Positions 3,456 to 33,799 of a stretch of 40,068 nucleotides of DNA are shown one piece after another (position 1 is the first letter of the stretch; each line of letters opens with the position of its first letter). The notes under the pieces were generated by a model. It was not told the DNA's origin. It saw only the letters and a list, made by a program, of their open reading frames with translations, and searched no databases. The stretch spans positions 11,975 through 52,042 of the forward strand of contig PBDC01000025.1 in NCBI GenBank assembly GCA_002717185.1, given 5' to 3'. The position numbers and the translations under genes were made by a program. Origin of the DNA: Rhodospirillaceae bacterium. GTDB taxonomy: Bacteria; Pseudomonadota; Alphaproteobacteria; UBA8366; GCA-2717185.

Positions 3456-4895
3456 ATGGAATACCTTGTTTCTGGATTGGCCGTGGCCGCGGCGCTGGGA
3501 TTTGCGGGCTATTTCGCGATGTCCCGCACGCGCAGCCTTGCCGTGCAGCTAGGTGAATTGCAGAAGGAACTCGCCGCAGCGCGTGCGCGCGCCAACGAAG
3601 CGGATGTGAGCGCGCATGCATTAGATGCCCGGATCGGTGAGATCGGGGCACAGTTGGTGGAGAGCAAGGAGGAGCGGGAGAAACTTTCTGCTGATCTGGA
3701 AGAGGCGAAAGAAGCGCGTCGCAATGCGGAGAAAGAAACGGCGCTGGCGCATCAGGAAATTGAGACCATGCGTGGGAGCATGGAAGATTGGGACAAAACC
3801 AAGAATGAGGCGATGGCCGCTGCCCGTGCGGCGATGCTGTCGACGGCGACCGACCTTTCGAACAAATTGTTAGAAGATCACAAGCGCGAAGCGAAAGCCG
3901 CTAAGGAAGAGGGCGAAAAGCGTGTCCAGGAGGCGAGCGGCAAACTACTCACACAATTCGAGGTCCTCTCCAAGACGGTTGCGTCGCTGAACGACCAAGT
4001 TGTGACCAACAAGGACGCGGTCGATGTCATAGAACGTGCTCTCTCCAACCCCGCAAGCGCGGGCTTCGCAGCCGAGACGGTGCTGGAGAACACACTGAAA
4101 AGCTTTGGACTGACCGCGGGTACAGATTTCATCTTGCAGCGGACATTCGGTGCGGAGGACGGTAGTCGTTTGCGGCCTGATGCCATCGTTTTCCTGCCTG
4201 CGGATGCTGTGCTGGTGATCGATAGCAAGGCATCGAAATTCCTAATCGAACTCGCCCAGGCTGAAGATGAGGCTGCAGAGGCGGCTGTAAATAAACGGCT
4301 TGCCGACACCATGAGCCAGCACCTTAAGAGCCTGGCGAGCAAAAATTACCGGAGTGCCGTCCAAGCGGATTTCCGTGCCGCAGGTAAGGGTGAAGAAGTT
4401 AAACAACTGATCAGCATAATGTGGCTACCGAATGACGCTGCCGTGGAAAAGGTGTTACGGGCCGATCCGGAATTCCAACGCAAAGCATCTGAAAACGGTA
4501 TTTTTGTTGTCGGCCCGACTGGCCTATGGACGGCTATCGGCGTTGCTGGTTCGAGAATTAACATCAACAAACAGGCTGAAAATTACGAGAATATTGTCGA
4601 GATGGTTCACACTCTGATCGAACGGCTTGTTATTGTTCTAGGCCATGCGGGACGAGTTGGAGGCGGCCTGAAGACCGCGGTCGATAGCTATGAAAAGCTA
4701 TCCCGCTCGATAAATTCGAGATTGCTGCCGCCGATGCGTAATCTGGTCGATCTTGGTGTCGAGGCCCCGACAAAGGGATTGCCTAAGCCGATGCCGGAAT
4801 TCGAAGTGCGGGATATCGACAGAAGGGACGCTATAGACGCGGAGGCCGGTACGCTCGATAACGTTCGAGAATTGCCGCTGCACACAGGTAAGTGA
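3456..4895 (+). CDS. rmuC: RmuC family DNA recombination protein
   Basis: A 479-residue protein with an N-terminal hydrophobic anchor (about residues 3-22), a long charged heptad-like coiled coil (about 25-170) rich in E, A, K and R, and the RmuC nuclease-like domain (about 180-430), including stretches such as DAIVFLPADAVLVIDSKAS and WLPNDAAVEKVL. RmuC proteins limit inversions at short inverted repeats and are linked to DNA recombination or cleavage. The ATG at 3456 is chosen because GGAG lies 8 bases upstream; a GTG at 3450 is the alternative. It diverges from def, and its stop overlaps the next start (TGATG), so it probably heads an operon with the FAD oxidoreductase and ubiD-like genes. 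Confidence 0.92.
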   Translation: MEYLVSGLAVAAALGFAGYFAMSRTRSLAVQLGELQKELAAARARANEADVSAHALDARIGEIGAQLVESKEEREKLSADLEEAKEARRNAEKETALAHQEIETMRGSMEDWDKTKNEAMAAARAAMLSTATDLSNKLLEDHKREAKAAKEEGEKRVQEASGKLLTQFEVLSKTVASLNDQVVTNKDAVDVIERALSNPASAGFAAETVLENTLKSFGLTAGTDFILQRTFGAEDGSRLRPDAIVFLPADAVLVIDSKASKFLIELAQAEDEAAEAAVNKRLADTMSQHLKSLASKNYRSAVQADFRAAGKGEEVKQLISIMWLPNDAAVEKVLRADPEFQRKASENGIFVVGPTGLWTAIGVAGSRININKQAENYENIVEMVHTLIERLVIVLGHAGRVGGGLKTAVDSYEKLSRSINSRLLPPMRNLVDLGVEAPTKGLPKPMPEFEVRDIDRRDAIDAEAGTLDNVRELPLHTGK

Positions 4896-21248: not shown

Positions 21249-21576
21249 GGGTTCACGCCTCTAATTGATTTTACTAGATGTGGATGCCCTGATTATCGAA
21301 TCAGTCGTCAGCTTCATCACGAGTTCGTGGATTTGTTGGCGAAACACAAGCAGGTAAGGCCTGAGCCTAGCCTCATCGAAGACGGTTACTCTGAAACCCT
21401 TGGGAAACCCATCAGCAGCGGTAGGCGCACACTTATTGACCCCATTGCGGGAACTTCCGGCCTTCTGAATAGGCTTGGCGTTGCCGGGGATGACAACTCA
21501 TGGTGTAGGACATATTTCGCCTTGTGAGCGAAGACGCTAATTTGCCGTACAAACTTTTAAATTGGAGAACGCGCTC
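21249..21576. other. Intergenic region after the petC terminator
   Basis: About 330 bases between the petABC terminator and the flavin oxidoreductase start. A plus-strand open frame crosses it but would have to start inside the terminator hairpin and has no family resemblance, so it is not called. The promoter of the downstream gene must lie here, but no convincing hexamer pair was found. Confidence 0.35.
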
Positions 21577-22617
21577 ATGAAACTCGGCTTGCTTCCTGGC
21601 AAATTCAGCGGTCGCTACGACATCAACATGGAATTGGTCCGCGAGGCGGAAAGCCTCGGTTTCGATTCCGCCTGGACGTCGGAGGCTTGGGGCAATGACG
21701 CGATCACACCGGCGACTTGGATCTTGGCGAACACGACCAAACTAAAGGTCGGTACGGCCATCATCCAGATGGCGGCCCGCACTCCATCTATGGCGGCGAT
21801 GACTGCCATGACCCTGAACGATCTTTCCGGCGGCCGCTTCATTCTTGGGATAGGGCCATCTGGCCCACAGGTTATTGAAGGGTGGCACGGCCAGGTTTTC
21901 GGCCGCCCGATCGCACGTACGCGAGAATATATCGAGATCATTCGCAACATCCTTGCGCGTGAAGCACCGCTTACGCACAAGGGGCGACACTATCAGATTC
22001 CTTTCAACGGTGACGGGTCGACGGGTCTTGGTAAAGCGCTGAAAAGTATCATGCATGGTGATCCGTCCATGCAAATTTACACAGCAGCGATTACGCCGGC
22101 TGGGCTTCGGGTGAGCGGTGAGCTGGCAGATGGCGGGTTCCCTATCTATATGGACCCTAGCCAGTTCGAGATAATTGGCGCACCACTTCAGGAAGGTTTC
22201 GCCAAGGCCGGCAACGGCAAGACCCTCGCAGACTATAAGGTGTCACCTTTCGTCGCTGTTGAGGTTGGAGACGATATCGAGGCGTGTCGCGCGCCAGTCA
22301 AACGGGAGATGGCACTCTATATTGGCGGCATGGGTGCACGCGATAAGAACTATTATAACGACTACGCCAAGAAGCTAGGTTTCGAGGCAGCTGCAGTCGA
22401 AATCCAAGATCATTTCTTGGCCGGGCGTCGGGCAGAGGCAGAAGCGGCAGTACCAAACGAACTTGTCGACGCTGTTGCTCTGGTTGGCCCGAAGGACAGG
22501 ATCATCGAGCGGGCCGTTGTGTGGAAAGAGGCCGCCGCCAAAGGCCAAATTGATACGATGGTCGTTCGTCGCCCCACACGCGCATCGATGCAGGCCATAG
22601 CAGAGGCCGTGCTGTGA
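21577..22617 (+). CDS. LLM class flavin-dependent oxidoreductase (F420-type-like)
   Basis: A 346-residue luciferase-like TIM-barrel protein. Diagnostic stretches are MKLGLLPGKF, the G-F-D-S-A-W-T-S-E-A-W-G-N-D-A strand, KVGTAIIQMAARTPSMAAM, LSGGRFILGIGPSGPQVIEGWHG, and P-I-A-R-T-R-E-Y-I-E-I-I. These patterns resemble the enzymes that use F420 or FMN to oxidise or oxygenate small molecules. GGAG lies 9 bases before the ATG at 21577. It is clearly paralogous to the minus-strand protein at 24506-25549: same length, and shared GPSGPQVIEGW/GVSGPQIVEGW and EALYIGGMG-like segments. It is transcribed alone after the petABC terminator. The substrate is not evident. Confidence 0.88.
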   Translation: MKLGLLPGKFSGRYDINMELVREAESLGFDSAWTSEAWGNDAITPATWILANTTKLKVGTAIIQMAARTPSMAAMTAMTLNDLSGGRFILGIGPSGPQVIEGWHGQVFGRPIARTREYIEIIRNILAREAPLTHKGRHYQIPFNGDGSTGLGKALKSIMHGDPSMQIYTAAITPAGLRVSGELADGGFPIYMDPSQFEIIGAPLQEGFAKAGNGKTLADYKVSPFVAVEVGDDIEACRAPVKREMALYIGGMGARDKNYYNDYAKKLGFEAAAVEIQDHFLAGRRAEAEAAVPNELVDAVALVGPKDRIIERAVVWKEAAAKGQIDTMVVRRPTRASMQAIAEAVL

Positions 22618-23138
22618 CCAGACACAACCCGCGATTTTACCCTTATGACCTGGGGTCGAATTTAGGCTTGCCTTTTGAAGGCGGGTGTTTAAACGCACTA
22701 CGTGCGCAACCATGCTGCTGCGACATCGTCGCTTTGTAACAGTTTAGCCTTGTCAAAATTTGGTTGCTTTTGCACCTATACCCGAAGGTGTAAATGAATT
22801 CGGGTCATGTGAGTTGGAACAATACATGTCGACAGCGCTGGCTCCGTGACCCAATGCCAGGCAGGCAAACCGTGGTTTGAACCAGGATCGATACTTAGGT
22901 TTGCGCAAGAAGCTAACATAGATCGCAAAAGCCGGTTCGTTCGTTGTTCCAATCTGCCTTGCGCGCTGAAAGGAAAAGCTCGATTGACTGTATCCTTTCA
23001 GAAGACCGGGACAAGCTGAAGTCTCAGATCGATAGCGGTAACCTGGATCGGTTTTTCTATGTTTCATTAATGACTTTGTCTTCGATCCCATTCGCGCTTA
23101 ACTAAAAGCTCGACAGCCTTTTGGGTAGTGGAGGTGTT
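22618..23138. other. Intergenic region with two hairpin or inverted-repeat elements, no gene
   Basis: No credible reading frame. A hairpin at 22670-22682 (GCCTT/AAGGC, three-base loop, extendable with wobble pairs) 52 bases after the flavin enzyme stop, followed by TGTTT, may be a weak terminator. A perfect nine-base inverted repeat, 22966-22974 with 22993-23001, separated by 18 bases, lies 138 bases before the next start; it could be an operator but may arise by chance. Confidence 0.35.
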
Positions 23139-24431
23139 ATGAGTGATGTGCAACATGACCGGTTCGGGAATCCTTTCGCTGCGGGAGTGCCTTATGCGCG
23201 CGGCGACTTTATCGGCGGTACGGCTGACGATCTTCGCAAACTGGGTCACGCCTGGTCGATGATCCGGAAGCGCATCGGCGAAGGGTCGGCCGGAGAAGTT
23301 TTCAATTTCAGTGGACTGGAACGGCGCTTTGAGATGCCGGCAAACGAGACGACGCCACTCGACGATGAGTTGGCACCAGCCTTGCTCAACGACCGGCTTC
23401 GCAGTCTCGGGTTGGAGCATATGGGCGCTGATGCTGAACGTCATGAAATGATGATGTTTAACCGGCAGACAGCGGCGATCCTTACGGCCACGCTCGTCAT
23501 GGTGGCGCCCGGCGATACAGTAATCGGTGTCTCACCCACCTACAGCCACCCTTGTGTCATTCGGGCCGTGAAACGGGCAGGGGCGAAATTCGTTGATACG
23601 GTCGGGGTGACCGCTTTCAGCGAGGCGCTTGATGCCGCGCGTGCCGCGGGGGAGACGGTTTCTGTGGTAGCTTTGACGCGCTTGGCTGTTAGCTACGAGA
23701 TTATGCCCCAGCGTGATATCGAGAAGGTTATTGCTCTTGCGCGCGCGGCGGGTGCAAAAATTCTCGTTGATGATGCCGGCGGTGCACGGGTTGGCCCTGC
23801 GATATTCGATCAGCCGAAATCTTTGGAGTTCGATGTCGACATCGCGTCGACCGGCCTCGATAAATACGGAACGATTGGGCCGCGGCTCGGTCTGCTCGCT
23901 GGCGACGCACGTTTGGTGGCGGATATCCAGGCAACCGCCTTTGAACTCGGGGTTGAAGCTCGGCCGATGCTGTATCCCGCCGTCGTGCATTCGCTGGCGC
24001 AGTACGACCCGCAGCGGGTCCGCGACCTGGTCACTAGCACACAAGAGATTACTGAGGTGATGAAATCTCGCTTTGGTAACCGTGTGTTGGAAACGCCGGT
24101 GACGGCGCAGCTGAAAGGCGAGGATATTCTGGAGATGGCGATGGAGCGGGCGGGCATCGTGGAACGTCCGGCTATGCCGATCGAGGCAACCGCTGGGCTC
24201 GCCATGGCGATGGCGCGGGATCACGGCATCCTGTCTGTCCATCTTGCCGGGCTACCGCCAGGAACCTCCGCTCTACTGTTCAAGTTTATACCTCCAGAAA
24301 CGTTGGGACGGTTCGGCGGTGCGGAACGGTTTGTCGATGCCGTCGATCAGTCAATCGACACGCTGGCTGCGGCTATCGGAGACCCTGCGGCGTTGCGATC
24401 GCTGCTTTTTGGCGATGTGGCCGCCGCATAG
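23139..24431 (+). CDS. SelA-like PLP-dependent enzyme (fold type I)
   Basis: A 430-residue fold-type-I PLP protein. The motifs seen are the pyridine-ring aspartate in ILVDDAGGARVG (D211 or D212), the candidate PLP lysine K242 in ASTGLDKYGTIGPRLGLLAGD, and an N-terminal part with Q-T-A-A-I-L-T-A-T-L. The G-P-R-L-G-L-L-A-G segment after the lysine resembles the selenocysteine synthase (SelA)/DgaE aldolase-related group. Nonetheless the N-terminal RNA-binding region of true SelA is not recognisable, so it is better read as a SelA-like aldolase, lyase or aminotransferase. GGAGG lies 4 bases before the ATG at 23139. It stands between two LLM flavin enzymes, convergent with the second. Confidence 0.7.
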   Translation: MSDVQHDRFGNPFAAGVPYARGDFIGGTADDLRKLGHAWSMIRKRIGEGSAGEVFNFSGLERRFEMPANETTPLDDELAPALLNDRLRSLGLEHMGADAERHEMMMFNRQTAAILTATLVMVAPGDTVIGVSPTYSHPCVIRAVKRAGAKFVDTVGVTAFSEALDAARAAGETVSVVALTRLAVSYEIMPQRDIEKVIALARAAGAKILVDDAGGARVGPAIFDQPKSLEFDVDIASTGLDKYGTIGPRLGLLAGDARLVADIQATAFELGVEARPMLYPAVVHSLAQYDPQRVRDLVTSTQEITEVMKSRFGNRVLETPVTAQLKGEDILEMAMERAGIVERPAMPIEATAGLAMAMARDHGILSVHLAGLPPGTSALLFKFIPPETLGRFGGAERFVDAVDQSIDTLAAAIGDPAALRSLLFGDVAAA

Positions 24432-24505: not shown

Positions 24506-25549
24506 CTAGGCGGGGTTCAAACGCGCGGCCTCGGCCATAAGGATAACAGCTTCGTCCTGCTGGGTCCGTACGGTCACGCTGGTTGCTTCGCAGTCGTCCC
24601 AGACCTTGTAACGTTCCTGGATCCGGGCCGGTGGCCCGACCAAGGATTTCGAGTCGACCCATTCGTCTGGCACCGCATCAGCGGCTTCCTTTTTTCGGCC
24701 TGCCAGGAATAATTCTTGGATCCGGTCGGCCGCGTCGGCGTAACCACGTCGGATCATCATGTCCTTGTGAAAGTTCTTGTTCTTATGGCCCATTCCGCCG
24801 ATATACAGCGCCTCGCGCGGCTTCAGTCGGTTGAGCGCGGCGGCGACGTCTTCGTCGATTTCCACATGTACAGAGGCCTGTATCTCAAAATTGTGGAACC
24901 CCTTGCCATTACCAGCGCGGGCGAACCCCTCTTCTAACCAGCCTTGGTATTCGTGAAACGTTCCAGGCGCAAAGCCGAGCGGTAGCCATCCATCCGCGAC
25001 TTCGGCGGTCAATCGGACTGTCGCCTCGTTGCCAGAGCCGATATAGATTGGGATATCTGGGTTCATGTGCAGGATCGAGGTCAGCGGCTTGCCGACGCCC
25101 AGCGTGCCTTCGCCTGTATAAGGTAGCTGCAGCTGCTTGCCATCATGGCTTACGGGGCCTTCGCGGCGGAAGACCTTACGCATAATCTCTACATAATCCT
25201 TTAACCAGTAATAGGGACGGCCCCAGGGCTCGCCATACCAGCCCTCGACGATTTGTGGGCCGGACACGCCCAGCCCCGCAAGGAAACGGCCCCCGCCGGT
25301 CATCGCGTCAATTGTGCCAGCGCACATGGCGGCATTCGCAGGCGTCCGTGCCGAGACCTGCATGATGCCGGTGCCAAGCTTGATCCTTTCCGTGACAGCA
25401 CCCAGATAGGCAAGCGGCGTCACAGCATCCGAGCCGTAAGCTTCAGCCGTCCAGACTGAATCGTATCCCAGACGCTCCGCCAACTGCACGCGTTTGACCG
25501 GCAGATCCATAGTGGCGCCGGAGTAGCCGATTGCAAGTCCGAGTTTCAT
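24506..25549 (-). CDS. LLM class flavin-dependent oxidoreductase (F420-type-like)
   Basis: A 347-residue paralogue of the protein at 21577-22617. Visible are MKLGLAIGYSGATMD, GYDSVWTAEAYGSDAVTPLAYLG, IKLGTGIMQVSARTPANAAM, GGRFLAGLGVSGPQIVEGWYGEPWGRP, IPIYIGSGNEATVRLTAEVADGWLP and EALYIGGMGHKNKNFH. The YIGSGNEATV segment, present here, is replaced by a non-matching stretch (YTAAITPAGL) in the paralogue, so substrate or flavin contacts may differ. The start has GGAG 7 bases upstream. It lies downstream of a TauD-type dioxygenase on the same strand, but a clear terminator separates them. Confidence 0.9.
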   Translation of the reverse strand: MKLGLAIGYSGATMDLPVKRVQLAERLGYDSVWTAEAYGSDAVTPLAYLGAVTERIKLGTGIMQVSARTPANAAMCAGTIDAMTGGGRFLAGLGVSGPQIVEGWYGEPWGRPYYWLKDYVEIMRKVFRREGPVSHDGKQLQLPYTGEGTLGVGKPLTSILHMNPDIPIYIGSGNEATVRLTAEVADGWLPLGFAPGTFHEYQGWLEEGFARAGNGKGFHNFEIQASVHVEIDEDVAAALNRLKPREALYIGGMGHKNKNFHKDMMIRRGYADAADRIQELFLAGRKKEAADAVPDEWVDSKSLVGPPARIQERYKVWDDCEATSVTVRTQQDEAVILMAEAARLNPA

Positions 25550-25635: not shown

Positions 25636-26517
25636 CTAAGCAGCGCTTTCCGTCAAAGCCGGCCATGCTTCTTTGTCGTCGAGCACGGTAACCCGGTGCA
25701 TGATGCGACGTTGGCCCTGATAATCATTCAGCGCACTGTGATGCACGCAGCGATTGTCCCAGAAGGTGAGCGTGCCTTTGCCCCAGCGGACCCGGCAGGT
25801 GAATTCCGGTCGCGCCATATGGTCATACAAATATTGCAATAGCGGTGCACTTTCCTCAGGCGTCATGCCCTCGAAGTGTTTGGTGAAAGACCGGTTCACG
25901 TAGAGGCCTCTGCGACCGGTTTCGCGATGAGTTCGGATAACCGGGTGCGTTGCTAATTGTTCCGCGTCTGCTGAATATTTGAACTTCATCGATTTGTTTT
26001 TGGCCCGCATCTCCGGCCCCGTGGCGTTAGTGCCAAAACTCGTAGTCGCGCTGTGCACGGCATTGAGGTTTTCGAGCAATTCCTTCATGCCGTCCGATAG
26101 GGCGTCGTAGGATGCGTACATGCTGGCGAACATGGTGTCGCCGCCGTGCTTCGGCACCTCCAGTGCGTAGAGCATGGAACCTAGCGGCGGTTTGGCGGCG
26201 TACGATACATCTGTATGCCATACACTGCCGACATTTCGCGTGTCCTCGGGGTTTTTAGCGACCAGCTGAATGTCGGGGTGGCCTTCGATGGTCGGGAAAA
26301 AGTCGTTGATATGTGCCGACCCGAAGTTACGAGCGAACGCCTTGTGGTTGTCCGGTGTCAAATCCTGATTGCGGAAGACGATGACCAAATGGTCGAGATG
26401 GGCACGGTGGATCTCGTCTAGGACTTTCGGCATCAATGGCTGTGACAGGTCGGGGCCGAAAATTTCCGCGCCGATCGCGCCGGCCAATGGTTTCACCGTG
26501 ATGTGTTGATAGGTCAT
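25636..26517 (-). CDS. TauD/TfdA family 2-oxoglutarate/Fe(II)-dependent dioxygenase
   Basis: A 293-residue dioxygenase. The iron triad is visible as H101 and D103 in VWHTDVSY and H260 in NRCVHHSALNDY, and the 2-oxoglutarate arginine is R275 in RRIMHRVTV. The N-terminus (VKPLAGAIGAEIFGPDLSQPL) and the LGSMLYALEVPKHGGDTMFASMYASYDAL stretch are typical of TauD-like enzymes, which hydroxylate taurine, other alkylsulfonates, 2,4-D or related acids. GAGG lies 8 bases before the ATG. It is 38-40 percent-type similar by eye to the dioxygenase at 32948, with nearly the same residue numbering of all ligands. The substrate cannot be read from the sequence. Confidence 0.92.
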   Translation of the reverse strand: MTYQHITVKPLAGAIGAEIFGPDLSQPLMPKVLDEIHRAHLDHLVIVFRNQDLTPDNHKAFARNFGSAHINDFFPTIEGHPDIQLVAKNPEDTRNVGSVWHTDVSYAAKPPLGSMLYALEVPKHGGDTMFASMYASYDALSDGMKELLENLNAVHSATTSFGTNATGPEMRAKNKSMKFKYSADAEQLATHPVIRTHRETGRRGLYVNRSFTKHFEGMTPEESAPLLQYLYDHMARPEFTCRVRWGKGTLTFWDNRCVHHSALNDYQGQRRIMHRVTVLDDKEAWPALTESAA

Positions 26518-26698: not shown

Positions 26699-27565
26699 TC
26701 ACTTGCTCGCCAGATGATCCTTAGTCATGCGCGCGTAGTCTTTGTCGCGGGTCAGTTGCTTTATCAATTCAGTAGAAGCAACTCCTTCCAAGTCTTTCGG
26801 TGCTACGCCCTCGCGCAGCGCCTTCAGCGTGTTATGGACGGCTTGGATGCCGGCCATGATAGGCATGTGGCCCTGCAGACCGATGCGCACACCGAGCTGG
26901 CCAAGTTTAGCCTTATCCTGCAGTTCCGGCCCCAGGCTACCAAGGAAGATTGGGATATCTATGGAATTGCCGATCTCTTCCAGCTCAGCTGGGGTATTAA
27001 TCCCAACGAAGAACATCGCATCTACTCCGACATCCTGATAGGCCTTGGCGCGTTTGATGGCGTCGTCCAGTCCATTAATGGCGGCGGCACTGGTCCGGCC
27101 AGCGACTACGAGGCTGGGGTCCTGACGGCCTTCTAATGCCGCGCGCATTTTCCCCACGCCCTCTTCCATGGAGATCAATTCCGGACCGCCGGTCTGCCCG
27201 TAAGGGGTTGGTAATATGGTATCCTCGATCGTCAGTGCGGCGACGCCGGCAGACTCTAGTTCCTCGACAGTGCGTCTGACATTCAGCGCGTTGCCGTAGC
27301 CATGGTCGGCATCGACCAGCAATGCGAGGTTTCCGGCACGACATATGCGGTAGGCTTGCTGAGCAAACTCCGTCAGGGTGAGAACGATGAGATCGGGCGC
27401 GCCGAGGACAGAGAGCGAGCCCACGGATCCGGCGAACATACCTACTTCAAAGCCGAGGTCCTCTGCGATGCGGGCAGAAATGGCGTCGTATACTGAGCCT
27501 GGGTGGATGCATTCGTCGCCATCAAGGAGCGCGCGAAACCGTTCGCGCCGTTCGGTCCAGTGCAT
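26699..27565 (-). CDS. Isocitrate lyase/PEP mutase superfamily protein, oxaloacetate decarboxylase type
   Basis: A 288-residue TIM-barrel enzyme. The metal-site stretch is LLVDADHGYGNALNV (D85, D87), followed by ALTIEDTILP (E114, D115), VEELESAGVAALTIEDT and a MEEGVGKMRAALEGRQDPSLVVAGRTSA segment. The cysteine motif of isocitrate and methylisocitrate lyases (K-K-C-G-H) is absent. The D-H-G-Y-G-N-A-L-N pattern and the overall length match the Pseudomonas-type oxaloacetate decarboxylase branch. AAGGA lies upstream of the ATG. It lies between two TauD-type dioxygenase genes on the same strand, 27 and 181 bases away, so a shared pathway that yields an alpha-keto acid is possible. Confidence 0.85.
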   Translation of the reverse strand: MHWTERRERFRALLDGDECIHPGSVYDAISARIAEDLGFEVGMFAGSVGSLSVLGAPDLIVLTLTEFAQQAYRICRAGNLALLVDADHGYGNALNVRRTVEELESAGVAALTIEDTILPTPYGQTGGPELISMEEGVGKMRAALEGRQDPSLVVAGRTSAAAINGLDDAIKRAKAYQDVGVDAMFFVGINTPAELEEIGNSIDIPIFLGSLGPELQDKAKLGQLGVRIGLQGHMPIMAGIQAVHNTLKALREGVAPKDLEGVASTELIKQLTRDKDYARMTKDHLASK

Positions 27566-27592: not shown

Positions 27593-28657
27593 TCAAATTG
27601 TTGTTGATCTGGTTGCGATACCACCTCTAAGGGCACCCGCTCTAACGTCTCGCCAGAGCACGGCGTGTTCTTCCGGCAGCGCGCGGCTGTTCGGCATGGA
27701 GAGCCACAAGCGGTGTAATAGCCGACCCTGCAATTTAGCTCCGTCCTGATAGGCGGTCCGCGCGTGATAGATAACGTGATTGTTTAGAAATTGCATGTCG
27801 CCTGGTTCGAAATGGAACGACATGCAATGTTCGGCCGCTAGTTCGGCGAGGACATCCAGCGCTTCGACCTGCAGGGCACTCATTTTGGTTTGCGGGTTGA
27901 TCTCTTCAGCGGCTTCCACATAAGTGCGCGAATAATGGCTTGTGAAACTCCCGTCTCGCTGTCCAAAGACGGGTAGTGGGTAAGTCATTTTCTCCCCGCC
28001 GAATTCTTCGCCTTGCCGTGACCGGTGAAAAGGCATGTAGAGCAACGCGGCAAGGTCTGGCCGACGTTCCAACATTACGTTGTGTATGTGCACCGAGCTG
28101 GCAATTCGGCTGATCCCACCCGATTTCGCTGGGCGCACGCAGAGCAGTCCGACAACGTCGCATCGGTCGGTGTGAAACCGAAGGGGGCCGCTGGATAGCG
28201 TACGGGCCTTGGACGATTTGAAAGACTTGCCATCCCGCGTGGTTAGTCGATGACCGAATAGCCCGTCGGTGTCCTCTTTTTTGTCCTCGATATCCCGCAT
28301 CATCATTCCGCGATAGTCTTGGGTCACTGGTGTCCCGAGATGAAGGCCGATACCGTACCAAATGTGCCGTAGCCGCCCCGCAAACCTTTCGATAGGCAGG
28401 TTTGATAGCCGAGCCATGCCGCAGCCATCTTCCAGTTCGGCTTGGACATGCGTTAATTTTTCGGCCAGGCCGTCGAGCGGAAAGTCGTCCTGTGTCAATT
28501 GGTGCCAATTGAGCCCGCGTGCTTTTAGCGTTGTGTCGGCCCGCTCAATTTCATCGATATCACGATCGGACAGGCTAAACCTCCAGCGCGGATTGATTTC
28601 GATGTCAGACCCCGTCCAGTCGCATGCCCCTTCGATTTTCGGTTGAATGGAATTCAT
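27593..28657 (-). CDS. TauD/TfdA family dioxygenase, longer divergent member
   Basis: A 354-residue protein. The Fe(II) ligands fit as H162 and D164 in RFHTDRCDVVGLL and H298 in NNHVIYHARTAY, with R316 in RLLHRLWLS as the 2-oxoglutarate arginine. It has a long N-terminal extension (about 1-90) and differs strongly from the two shorter TauD-type proteins in the window. Its layout resembles the TauD-fold hydroxylases often seen in catabolic clusters and near natural-product genes. The ATG at 28657 is preferred over a TTG three codons upstream. It ends 27 bases before the oxaloacetate-decarboxylase-type gene, so the two are likely one operon. Substrate unknown. Confidence 0.85.
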   Translation of the reverse strand: MNSIQPKIEGACDWTGSDIEINPRWRFSLSDRDIDEIERADTTLKARGLNWHQLTQDDFPLDGLAEKLTHVQAELEDGCGMARLSNLPIERFAGRLRHIWYGIGLHLGTPVTQDYRGMMMRDIEDKKEDTDGLFGHRLTTRDGKSFKSSKARTLSSGPLRFHTDRCDVVGLLCVRPAKSGGISRIASSVHIHNVMLERRPDLAALLYMPFHRSRQGEEFGGEKMTYPLPVFGQRDGSFTSHYSRTYVEAAEEINPQTKMSALQVEALDVLAELAAEHCMSFHFEPGDMQFLNNHVIYHARTAYQDGAKLQGRLLHRLWLSMPNSRALPEEHAVLWRDVRAGALRGGIATRSTTI

Positions 28658-29156
28658 AATTGGCAACGACCTTAATTCGGTTTGGTTCTAACCGCTGTCG
28701 AGCGATTTTGAGACCAGCATCCAAAAACCCTGCTCTCTTTTCGCTCAGTCCCCTTGTTTACGATAGACCGTTGAGTTGCTGATAGCTAGCAGGCTCGTTG
28801 CCTGGCGGAAGTTACTGCCGCAGTACTGAAAGATTTTTATGGCGTGTTTTGTAGCGATCCAATGAGGGCGAGCGGCGGGTATTCTCAATTGCAGGGGAGA
28901 ATTTGCACACCATCGACTGGTAATTCACACAACGCGTCGGGCACACGCCGACGTCGCTTTGTTTTGTCTAGGGGTGAGCAGTGCTGGGAAATTGTCACCC
29001 ATTGTGGGCGGGTTCAACGACCTGATATGCCATCCCTGAGTTACTAAGGCCAGATGGACAGCTGCGGGTCGTTTTCGTACTAGTCTATCTCGACCAATAG
29101 TGTTCGATCCGTTACGCTTAGAGCGAACCTAAATTGGATCGGATGCGCTGAAGCAC
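28658..29156. other. Divergent intergenic region, about 500 bases
   Basis: It separates the minus-strand dioxygenase operon from the plus-strand thioredoxin-fusion/UGSC pair, so it must hold promoters for both. No gene-like frame, terminator, tRNA or recognised riboswitch is visible. Confidence 0.4.
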
Positions 29157-30590
29157 ATGATTTCCGATGGATTAATCGTCGTCGCGAAACGCGACTGCCC
29201 GACCTGCACGCTTCTCGAGCCAGTTTACCGTGAGCTCATGGACAGCGCGGCTGAAATCGCGGTCTATAGCCAGGATGACCCTACCTTTCCCGAAAGCGTG
29301 AGTGATGTCTTCGATGACCGCGAACTGGAACAATCCTATCGCCTTAATATAGAGACGGTGCCGACCCTCATACGTATGCAAGGCGGTCGAGAGGTAGCCC
29401 GGACTGTCGGCTGGCATCAGGGCGAATGGCGCGACTTGACCGAGATCCGTTCGTTGGGGGCGGGTTTGCCTGATTTCCGGCCCGGGTGCGGATCGATGAG
29501 CGTGGAACCAGGCATGGCCGAACGGCTGGCGGTTCGGTTTGGCGATTTAGAAATTGCTGCCAGGCGTATCGAGATTGGGGGCCTTGAAGATGAAATGGAG
29601 GCCTGTTTCGAGCGGGGGTGGAGCGATGGTTTGCCGGTGGTACCTCCAACCGAAATTCGGCTTGTGCGTATGCTGGAAGGCACTACGCGCGATCCCGACG
29701 AAGTCATTGGCGAGATACCGCCGAACCTGGTGCCTTGTACTGTTGAAAAGGTGGCACTCAATGCGGTCATGGCTGGCTGCAAACCGGAATATCTGCCCGT
29801 GGTCCTGGCGGCCGTAGAAGCTGCCCTAATCCCAGCTTTTTGTATGCATGGCATGTTGTGTACGACACACTTTGTTGGCCCTATGGTTATCGTCAACGGT
29901 CCTATTACCCGGGCGGTCGGTATGAATTCCGGCGGGAATGCGCTGGGACAGGGTAATAGGGCAAATGCTACGATCGGCCGCGCACTGCAGCTAGTCATAC
30001 GGAATGTTGGTGGTGGCGTGCCTGGTGGGATCGACCGCGCGACCCTCGGTAATCCGGGAAAATTTACCTACTGTTTTGCCGAGGACGAGTCCGATCCACA
30101 TTGGGAACCTCTGTCTGTGCAAAGGGGCGCCGCCGCTGGAACTTCCGCCGTCACGCTTTACGGTGGCGAAGGATTGCTGGGCAATTTCGATCAACTGTCG
30201 CGGACGCCCGACTCCTTGACCCGTTCGCTCGCCCTGTCGCTTCGGGCGATCGGACACCCAAAAAAGGCCGGTTCACACGATGCGCTAATCATTCTGTCGC
30301 CGGAACATTTCCGAACCTATCGGCAAGCGGGCTGGACAAAGTCGCAGACCCTGGAAGCGTTCGAAGAGGCTTTATTGCTTCCCGGGCGTGAACTTGTCAG
30401 AGGCGCTGGCGGGGTCGCGGAGGGGATGCCGGAACATCTCGCCGACGAGACCATATCCAAATTTAGGCCCGGCGGTTTGAACATCGTGAGAGCTGGCGGG
30501 ATTGCCGGCATGATGTCCGCGGTGGTTGGCGGATGGGCGGCGACCGGCGAACGTGGCAGTGAAATGGTAACAAAGGAGATCGGAACATGA
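29157..30590 (+). CDS. Thioredoxin-like domain fused to a large conserved domain; UGSC partner protein
   Basis: A 477-residue protein in two parts. Residues 1-95 look like a thioredoxin fold: strand, then the active-site motif C14-P-T-C17, and a likely cis-proline at P69 in ETVPTLIRM. Residues about 120-477 form one large domain starting with ERGWSDGLPVVPPTEIRLVRML, rich in glycine, with several cysteines (C194, C208, C229, C235, C306). I recognise no enzyme in it. There is no signal peptide. The stop codon overlaps the start of the UGSC selenoprotein gene (ATGA), implying coupled synthesis. Inference: the CPTC domain could reduce the selenenylsulfide of the UGSC protein, or the pair forms one redox enzyme. 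The reaction is unknown. Confidence 0.75.
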   Translation: MISDGLIVVAKRDCPTCTLLEPVYRELMDSAAEIAVYSQDDPTFPESVSDVFDDRELEQSYRLNIETVPTLIRMQGGREVARTVGWHQGEWRDLTEIRSLGAGLPDFRPGCGSMSVEPGMAERLAVRFGDLEIAARRIEIGGLEDEMEACFERGWSDGLPVVPPTEIRLVRMLEGTTRDPDEVIGEIPPNLVPCTVEKVALNAVMAGCKPEYLPVVLAAVEAALIPAFCMHGMLCTTHFVGPMVIVNGPITRAVGMNSGGNALGQGNRANATIGRALQLVIRNVGGGVPGGIDRATLGNPGKFTYCFAEDESDPHWEPLSVQRGAAAGTSAVTLYGGEGLLGNFDQLSRTPDSLTRSLALSLRAIGHPKKAGSHDALIILSPEHFRTYRQAGWTKSQTLEAFEEALLLPGRELVRGAGGVAEGMPEHLADETISKFRPGGLNIVRAGGIAGMMSAVVGGWAATGERGSEMVTKEIGT

Positions 30591-31108
30591 AGGATTCGAT
30601 GGTGCTACTCGATCCAACCGCCGAAACGGCACCGACGCAACGTGCGCGTATAGCGCCGCTCGCGTCGCTTAACGGCAAGACCATCGCGCTGCTGGATATA
30701 GGCAAGGCGCGCGGCGACGTATTTTTAGATCAGCTGGAAGTGGGCATGGTCTCCCGCGGTTTGAAGGTGAAGCGTTATGCAAAGCCGACCAATACCAAGG
30801 TCGCGCCGGTCGCTGTTGCCCAGGCGATCGCGACGGAATGTGACGTTGTCGTTGAAGCGCTCTCTGATTGAGGCTCGTGCACGTCGTGCAGTTTGCATGA
30901 CATTGCGGATTTGGATAGCCGTGGCATTCCGGGTGGCATGATTGCCACGACTGCGTTTGAGGAGGCGGCGGTCTCTCAGGGTCGCGCCCTCGGGTTTGAC
31001 CCTGCAATCGTGTATGTTCCGCATCCAATTCAGGATCGGACGGACAAGGAAATTCAGGCCATCGCGGACGATGCGTTGGATTCTATCCTGGACATGATTT
31101 CCCAATAA
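30587..31108 (+). CDS. UGSC family selenoprotein with in-frame TGA read as selenocysteine
   Basis: Read through the TGA at 30869-30871, the frame gives 173 residues. The part before it (94 residues, with KTIALLDIGKARGDVFLDQL and E-C-D-V-V-V-E-A-L-S-D) continues in the same frame as GSCTSCSLHDIADLDSRGIPG and then TTAFEEAAVSQGRALGFDPAIVYVPHPIQDRTDKEI, up to a TAA. The codon after D94 is therefore U95 in U-G-S-C, with C98 and C101 beside it, the defining motif of the UGSC (seleno)protein family. Homology-like, gene-like sequence on both sides in one frame argues against a simple nonsense mutation or frameshift. A conventional caller would end the gene at 30871 and restart at 30893. It is coupled to the thioredoxin-fusion gene. 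Confidence 0.85.
30872..30906 (+). promoter_or_regulatory. Candidate bacterial SECIS element
   Basis: GTCGTGCA (30883-30890) pairs with TGCATGAC (30894-30901), seven Watson-Crick pairs plus one G-U, around the loop GTT. The loop begins 19 bases after the TGA and its first base is G. Both features fit the published bacterial SECIS model, in which the apical loop is roughly 16-37 bases downstream with a G in its first two positions. A short lower helix (30879-30881 with 30904-30906) may extend it. The repeat TCGTGCA at 30875 and 30884 allows a register-shifted alternative stem. Confidence 0.65.
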
Positions 31109-32947: not shown

Positions 32948-33799
32948 ATGGCAACCCATTCGATTGAAGTGAAGCCGGTGTCCGGCGCTTTAGGCGCTGA
33001 GATATCTGGCGTCGACATTTCAAATCCGTTGAGCACCCATGAACTTGATATACTGAGCAGTGCTTTCCTCGAGCATCAGGTGATCTGTATCCGCGATCAG
33101 AGCCTTACGCCGACACAGCAGATCGCGTTCGCCGAGAATTTCGGAGAACCCGATATATACCCTTTTATCAAAGGGTTGCCAGACACGCCCGAGGTCATCG
33201 AGATTTTAAAAACCGAGAATGATACCGTGAATTTTGGCGGTGGATGGCATTCCGACACCAGCTACCTTGAAAAGCCGGCACTAGGATCGATGCTCTACGC
33301 TTTGGAAACGCCCACCGCTGGTGGCGATACCATGTTCGCCAACATGTACTTGGCCTACGAAGCGCTTTCAAAAGGCATGAGGCGAATGCTTGATCGCCTG
33401 ATTGGCGTAAATAGTTCCGCGCAAGGGTATCGCGGGGGTCGAGCCAAAAAGATGCAAGAACTCGATGGCATGAAGGATAAATACATCGAGAATTCGCAGG
33501 TGTCAGTGGCGGAGCACCCTGTCGTGCGTACGCATCCGGAAACCGGACGCAAGGGCCTATACGCCAGCCGAGGTCATACGGAAAATTTCAGAGGTATGAC
33601 CCCGGCGGAGAGCAAACCGCTGATCGACTTTCTGGCGGACCATGCGGTGCGTCCCGAATTCACCTGCAGAATGCGATGGGAACCGGGGACACTGATTTTC
33701 TGGGACAATCGCTGCACCCAGCATTTTGCGATCAACGATTATGCGGGTGAACGGCGGCGCATGCATCGTGTGACGTTGGTCGGCGATCACCCAGCATGA
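32948..33799 (+). CDS. TauD/TfdA family 2-oxoglutarate/Fe(II)-dependent dioxygenase
   Basis: A 283-residue dioxygenase. Iron ligands are H101 and D103 in GWHSDTSY and H259 in NRCTQHFAINDY, with R274 in RRMHRVTLV for 2-oxoglutarate. It shares long stretches with the protein at 25636-26517 (for example LGSMLYALETPTAGGDTMFANMYLAYEAL against LGSMLYALEVPKHGGDTMFASMYASYDAL), so the two are paralogues or xenologues. Length and motifs match TauD-type enzymes that cleave sulfonates or hydroxylate related acids. It is a single-gene unit, with a decayed LysR regulator upstream and no clear ribosome site in front of the ATG. The substrate is not determined. Confidence 0.92.
   Translation: MATHSIEVKPVSGALGAEISGVDISNPLSTHELDILSSAFLEHQVICIRDQSLTPTQQIAFAENFGEPDIYPFIKGLPDTPEVIEILKTENDTVNFGGGWHSDTSYLEKPALGSMLYALETPTAGGDTMFANMYLAYEALSKGMRRMLDRLIGVNSSAQGYRGGRAKKMQELDGMKDKYIENSQVSVAEHPVVRTHPETGRKGLYASRGHTENFRGMTPAESKPLIDFLADHAVRPEFTCRMRWEPGTLIFWDNRCTQHFAINDYAGERRRMHRVTLVGDHPA

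Follow-up and report, generated by a model that had tools for sequence, protein, structure and literature searches.

Two questions are raised by this locus: whether a single in-frame TGA ends a short gene or is read as selenocysteine (Sec), and what the protein that results from read-through may do. The window analysed here, the whole stretch of 40,068 nucleotides (nt) of contig PBDC01000025.1 from a Rhodospirillaceae bacterium, contains at 30587..31108 on the + strand a gene of the UGSC family that begins with ATG, ends with TAA and encodes 173 amino acids (aa) if the TGA at 30869..30871 (+) is read as Sec at residue 95 (U95). We consider it virtually certain that this is a selenoprotein gene. 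The sequence-only reading had proposed as much from a frame running unshifted across the TGA and on for 78 codons to the TAA, and this course of the frame is confirmed from the sequence, in which the TGA is the only one in frame and lies in the context S-D-U-G-S-C-T-S-C. The motif U-G-S-C-T-S-C itself (residues 95–101; 30869..30889, +) has the UxxCxxC arrangement that is shared with selenoprotein B (GrdB). A putative Shine-Dalgarno-like AAGGAG, read from the sequence, precedes the start codon at 30573..30578 (+), within the end of the upstream gene, which we call the partner gene.

The assignment to the UGSC family was borne out by profile searches. With cysteine (Cys) written in place of U, the read-through product matches the Pfam family PF24696 (UGSC) over residues 7–171 with 125.7 bits (E 2.7e-36; cut-off 25) and the NCBIfam model NF041046 with 130.9 bits, above its curated cut-off of 125. 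With E 1e-3 as the limit, a protein search yielded 591 relatives; the 120 that were listed show 51–60% identity, are 171–204 aa long and cover 94–100% of the query, spanning the TGA position. Cys occupies residue 95 in all 26 database relatives aligned with the window protein, as is to be expected when gene callers shorten the Sec forms. CGSCTSC, in which C stands for the U of the window protein, is invariant in the 27 aligned family members. When both Sec and Cys forms of the family are considered, the homologues align across the TGA and not just up to it. The window gene is thus a new member of an already known family and differs from it in nothing essential.

The state of the Sec codon was followed in a related set of 57 loci, 56 of them distinct (L045 duplicates L024, being identical to it and from the same genome). 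UGSC or CGSC is present at all 57, the three residues after the motif being variable, and the codon is TGA in 31 and TGC or TGT in 26, so that with the window there are 32 Sec forms versus 26 Cys forms. A scan of genome contigs supplied 27 of these loci, 25 with Cys and two with Sec (L026 and L027, both Acidimicrobiia), and was biased towards Cys forms because one of the two patterns used held a Cys codon. A search of 385 genomes of the class of G016, a Rhodospirillales metagenome-assembled genome and the source of L024, returned 72 matches in 33 genomes with up to five UGSC copies per genome, and 70 of the 72 have an in-frame TGA; the 30 loci taken from this search have TGA at the motif in 29 cases and Cys in one (L045). 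Compared with L028, the nearest Sec homologue found, the part of the window gene after the TGA differs at 18, 12 and 41 first, second and third codon positions over 78 codons (53 identical residues), and the part before it at 22, 17 and 42 over 79 codons (55 identical residues). The sequence after the TGA diverges like coding DNA, much as the sequence upstream of it does. At 23 places in the window a single TGA lies between open stretches that are each 60 codons or longer; the UGSC gene is one of them, and the other 22 gave no match to UGSC, PrdB-like or partner proteins, the three with which they were compared.

A SECIS-like (selenocysteine insertion sequence-like) hairpin lies at 30883..30901 (+), beginning 11 nt after the TGA, with a stem of 7 bp (GTCGTGC/GCATGAC) and the loop AGTTT, whose GU is at 30891–30892. 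Its features were compared between 32 Sec genes (the 31 loci and the window) and 26 Cys genes, 24 of them distinct in the first 45 bases; since the genes are related, the counts are not independent. Loop positions 2–3 are GT (GU in the RNA) in 32 of 32 Sec genes versus none of the 24 distinct Cys genes, and at the loop-closing position all 32 Sec genes have C-G, a pair being formed there by 13 of 24 Cys genes. The fourth stem pair forms in 29/32 versus 13/24 genes and the seventh in 23/32 versus 6/24, while the sixth shows the opposite trend (24/32 versus 24/24) and three further pairs are uninformative because they are the same in all genes of both sets. The mean folding energy of the stretch is −8.9 kcal/mol in Sec genes versus −4.2 kcal/mol in Cys genes. 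For residue 102 the 32 Sec genes use the codons AGT (Ser, 22) or TGT (Cys, 10), the 26 Cys genes TCN (23) or AGC (3), so that, as far as can be judged from the alignment, the loop GU constrains the protein sequence at residue 102 in Sec genes. The best explanation of these patterns would be that the hairpin directly after the UGA directs its recoding.

The machinery required for such recoding was sought in the genomes of the related loci, the 40-kb window itself containing no tRNA and no Rfam match. The NCBIfam model for selB (TIGR00475) is matched above cut-off by all but one of the 16 Sec genomes tested, three of these 15 passing by the first ~340 positions only; the sole miss is G030, a 2.8-Mb assembly that may be incomplete. 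Among Cys genomes selB was found in 5 of 17, namely in none of a first ten, from which those with a strong tRNA-Sec match had been excluded, and in five of the other seven, which were run afterwards. The tRNA-Sec model RF01852 is matched above cut-off in 16 of 19 genomes and also in 5 of 14 controls, and because the controls pass the cut-off as well we counted only matches of at least 60 bits, a limit that we set ourselves. By this measure both Sec genomes tested (65–70 bits) and the Cys genomes G002, G011, G012, G014 and G016 carry the tRNA, and these five Cys genomes are the five with selB. G016, the only Cys genome searched for Sec paralogues, also has TGA-containing UGSC paralogues.

The reading of the TGA as Sec, claimed at the outset from the letters alone, is thus supported by the Sec and Cys homologues at this codon, by the Sec-specific GU of the hairpin loop and by selB in Sec genomes, and two other explanations have to be measured against it. 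That the TGA is a true stop, and the open frame behind it the product of a sequencing error, a decayed gene or the second of two short proteins, would agree with the use of TGA as a normal stop elsewhere in the window; with 31 of 57 loci from other genomes having TGA at this very codon, with an in-frame TGA in 70 of the 72 class-search matches, and with both the hairpin and the post-TGA coding pattern conserved, it appears very improbable. TGA is reassigned in some bacteria, and a changed genetic code giving it the meaning of tryptophan or cysteine would also keep the frame open, but here TGA is an ordinary stop that ends 10 of the 18 genes listed in the window, the overlapping partner gene included, and the chance of this explanation is next to negligible.

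With the TGA read as Sec, the window protein falls among the Sec forms in a tree of 58 rows, where it groups with L028 (68% identical). Nested inside the Sec forms are the Cys forms, and the Sec/Cys label needs two changes versus a shuffled mean of about 19. To judge from these sequences Sec is likely to be the older state and Cys the derived one, a conclusion kept at that strength because of the midpoint root and four long rows in the tree. Cys forms were found in Methylobacterium brachythecii, Bradyrhizobium sp. and Elioraea rosea.

The question of what the protein does leads to its relatives beyond its own family. UGSC is very probably related, as a protein standing alone, to the Sec domain that selenoprotein B (GrdB/GrdF/GrdH, PrdB) has in the reductases for glycine, sarcosine, betaine and D-proline. 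When the window protein was compared with 18,950 NCBIfam models (E ≤10, HMMER filters on), only two matched beyond its own family, TIGR01917 for glycine reductase selenoprotein B (E 0.0018, residues 81–151 on model positions 333–398) and NF040794 for sarcosine GrdF (E 0.012); the scores are far below the selenoprotein B cut-offs (17.2 versus 602.2 bits and 14.3 versus 800 bits, respectively). At E 0.1 the 27 family members match TIGR01917 (25), NF040794 (25), TIGR01918 (19) and NF040795 (17), and four other NCBIfam models match one or two of the 27 each. In profile–profile comparison with hhalign a narrow UGSC alignment gave 85% against 17 GrdB sequences (4 full-length, 13 ending at Sec), with a score of 45 versus at most 24.2 in 200 column shuffles, and 20.5% against PrdB-like proteins alone; an alignment of 84 UGSC rows gave 93.9% against GrdB, 85.3% against the PrdB-like proteins and 97.0% against the two sets combined, with Sec aligned to Sec over 118 columns (P 1.2e-10). 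The value was 93.3% with UGSC residues 93–103 removed, 96.6% without four remote rows and 95.2% with the Sec motif removed on both sides, versus at most 1.3% in 100 shuffles. A GrdB/PrdB-like hidden Markov model (HMM) run over 2,577 read-through segments from the collected loci ranked 27 GrdB/PrdB-like segments first (E <1e-8), followed by 56 UGSC-motif segments (47 distinct genes) and then by the first other segment at E 0.8; the 2,577 contain 65 UGSC-motif segments (54 distinct), and the 56 have the motif inside the matched stretch. The reference GrdB, P0242, is genuine, since it passes TIGR01918 and adjoins GrdE (PF09338, E 1.8e-119).

Shared with selenoprotein B are the placement of Sec after G-[IL]-P and PHP segments, over ~118 aligned columns, and a similar Sec motif, U-G-[ST]-C-T-x-C in UGSC versus U-G-T-[CG]-T-R-C in GrdB, as judged from its four full-length rows; the passages available of PMC13188914 mention UxxCxxC as a GrdB motif. 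PrdB (TIGR04483) and the PrdB-like proteins resemble UGSC in being small Sec proteins with a similar post-Sec segment, and the PrdB-like proteins have UPxC in place of UGSCTSC; one of them, when scanned, gave 95 bits versus the TIGR04483 cut-off of 300. Unlike the 436-aa GrdB, the 173-aa UGSC protein has no N-terminal domain, and its constant neighbour is a thioredoxin-bearing partner rather than a GrdE-type pyruvoyl protein. In genomes with UGSC the Pfam GRDB family (PF07355) has 48 matches in 21 of the 22 genomes searched, one match being a true GrdB; 25 PF07355 loci comprise 24 with UPxC (L059–L082, with a read-through TGA at UPxC) and one with GrdB, some genomes having several UPxC proteins. 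The GrdE–GrdB pair at L088 (4598–7191; G018, Acidimicrobiia) has Sec in GrdB, in a genome that also has a Sec UGSC gene. Three database GrdB proteins (P0356, P0357, P0362) have W at the Sec position, apparently through translation of TGA as Trp.

The partner gene (29157..30590, +; 477 aa) overlaps the UGSC start by ATGA at 30587–30590, its TGA stop ending 278 nt before the TGA of the UGSC gene, and a homologue stands upstream of UGSC on the same strand at 55 of 57 loci. Residues 1–97 have a thioredoxin (Trx) fold, scoring 20.6 against PF13098, below the Pfam cut-off of 27, and include the CPTC redox motif (residues 14–17; 29196..29207, +), of which C14, T16 and C17 are invariant in 23 aligned sequences. 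The remaining 380 residues form a domain that matched no Pfam family at E 0.1 across 23 members. The partner is probably the electron donor to the UGSC protein. According to the part of the text available, PMC2398784 remarked in 2008 on sequences in which UGSC occurs as a fusion with an Unknown_1 domain, and this remark may concern the partner. L051 (G360, minus strand) is the one locus among the 57 with UGSC at which, within the DNA examined, a PrdB-like selenoprotein (UPFC) adjoins the pair, so that partner, UGSC and this protein are encoded consecutively.

The AlphaFold model of the UGSC protein is a five-strand domain of the form (beta-alpha) x 5, with a predicted local distance difference test score (pLDDT) of 90.6. 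The orders of secondary-structure elements in Trx and peroxiredoxin (Prx) differ from that of the model, and two structure-comparison programs listed no thioredoxin row among 50 each, although folds not listed are still possible. The predicted fold suggests a difference from the Trx-like fold put forward for UGSC in 2008 (PMC2398784, in the part available).

Taken together, the sequences themselves show the Sec decoding signals, the family, the relation to selenoprotein B and the linkage to the partner, and our best explanation, which we hold to be probable, is a UGA-recoded UGSC selenoprotein that acts with its partner in the manner of the Sec domain of selenoprotein B. The chemistry, the role of each Cys and the roles of the partner domains would, by analogy, most likely be those of the reductases. 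In the mechanism proposed for PrdB, as described in the available part of PMC3091704, proline is bound by the pyruvoyl group of PrdA and attacked at its alpha carbon by the selenolate, a Cys of PrdB cleaves the selenoether and the selenide-sulfide is then reduced; glycine reductase (GrdA/GrdB) receives its electrons from NADPH via thioredoxin, according to the same source. The Sec, the two Cys of UxxCxxC and the PHP segment are all retained in UGSC, and the partner supplies a thioredoxin; we therefore propose the same chemistry as in PrdB. The U95 selenolate would attack a small electrophilic substrate to give a selenium-bound intermediate, which a Cys of UxxCxxC (C98 or C101) would resolve to a selenenyl sulfide, and the CPTC thioredoxin domain of the partner would reduce the latter, while its second domain would bind or prepare the substrate, a task performed in the reductases by GrdE or PrdA. 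Chemistry on a substrate carbon is a conceivable function, to which we give somewhat less than even chances. More tentatively still, UGSC could be the catalytic unit of a new selenoprotein-B enzyme class outside the Stickland fermenters, in which a thioredoxin fused to the substrate subunit replaces a separate Trx and GrdE/PrdA, and which serves Alphaproteobacteria, Actinomycetota and Bacteroidota in the reductive cleavage of a small compound at a C-N, C-S or C-X bond, the Sec form being the older and the Cys form derived.

Several results weigh against this explanation. The reverse search is weak, the UGSC HMM giving GrdB an E of 0.039 and a chance segment 0.038, and PF07355 has no match to the window protein even at E 10; the PF07355 match stops just before Sec in the one GrdB checked. 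L042 and L044 have no partner gene, and at L054–L057, which are distant paralogues, the partners align only from residue 111 or later and lack the Trx part. The partner is unrelated to GrdE (hhalign 0.3%, with one GrdE sequence, PF09338, compared), so that nothing points to a pyruvoyl substrate site, and no substrate is indicated because gene neighbourhoods differ between genomes. As five Cys-form genomes carry selB, it is no exclusive marker of the Sec form.

Part of these observations could be accommodated if UGSC were a peroxidase or a general thiol-disulfide reductase in stress defence, fed by the partner and performing no substrate-carbon chemistry. A UxxC beside a Trx domain would then be a plain redox pair, the reference list of PMC3091704, in the part available, includes a title on a peroxidase activity of GrdB, and L091 and L092 have a few kb upstream genes that we take to be AhpC-like and LysR-type regulator-like. 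Other neighbourhoods, however, show what we presume to be transporters, GntR-like regulators and catabolic genes, the AlphaFold model has its elements in an order found in neither Prx nor Trx, and the presence of as many as five copies in a genome suits substrate-specific enzymes better; we regard the peroxidase or reductase as unlikely. A detoxification module, with UxxCxxC as the binding site for an ion of a metal, a metalloid or an alkyl-metal, is quite improbable, since reading the neighbourhoods by eye, without a profile search, revealed no mer, ars or metal-transport gene, and general beta/alpha rows lie within 2 Z units in the structure comparison.

Earlier papers had already described the UGSC family, how abundant it is and that it comes in Sec and Cys forms (PMC2398784, PMC9402790, PMC13188914, PMC9312934, PMC5029168, PMC7539508, each in the part available). 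It accounts for 8.2% of selenoprotein genes in one marine survey (PMC9402790) and is the most frequent selenoprotein family in the non-marine samples of another (PMC2398784), again in the parts available. The sequence-only reading had called the family known and its reaction undefined, and this agrees with the literature: the available passages of PMC2398784, PMC9402790 and PMC13188914 portray it as a selenoprotein family of major standing in aquatic samples and assign it no function, nor is one given in the part available of a 2026 review. Among the papers listed by the search, three name UGSC, GrdB and glycine reductase; in the passages available they treat UGSC and GrdB as separate families and draw no link, which Pfam and NCBIfam pages, subscription papers and preprints, lying outside the search, may hold. 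What is added here is the kinship with selenoprotein B, the partner gene and the predicted fold, the first two of which were also absent from the sequence-only reading. The kinship and the single partner gene narrow the question to which compound the pair reduces, and the Cys forms in named strains make the pair accessible to study without Sec machinery.

In the window three TauD-family dioxygenases in all (25636–26517, 27593–28666 and 32948–33799) are spread over the two sides of the partner–UGSC pair. A methylisocitrate-lyase-like protein is encoded at 26699–27565 and LLM oxidoreductases at 21562–22617 and 24506–25549. The product of 23121–24431 (+), for which TIGR03576 is the best model (166 bits; cut-off 304) and which has no selA match, is presumably a SelA-like pyridoxal phosphate enzyme. 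At five Bacteroidota loci (L004, L010, L012, L018 and L022) the gene directly upstream of the partner, at ~3650–4550, encodes what we take to be a beta-keto acid cleavage enzyme-like protein, and dehydrogenase-like and permease-like proteins are encoded nearby.
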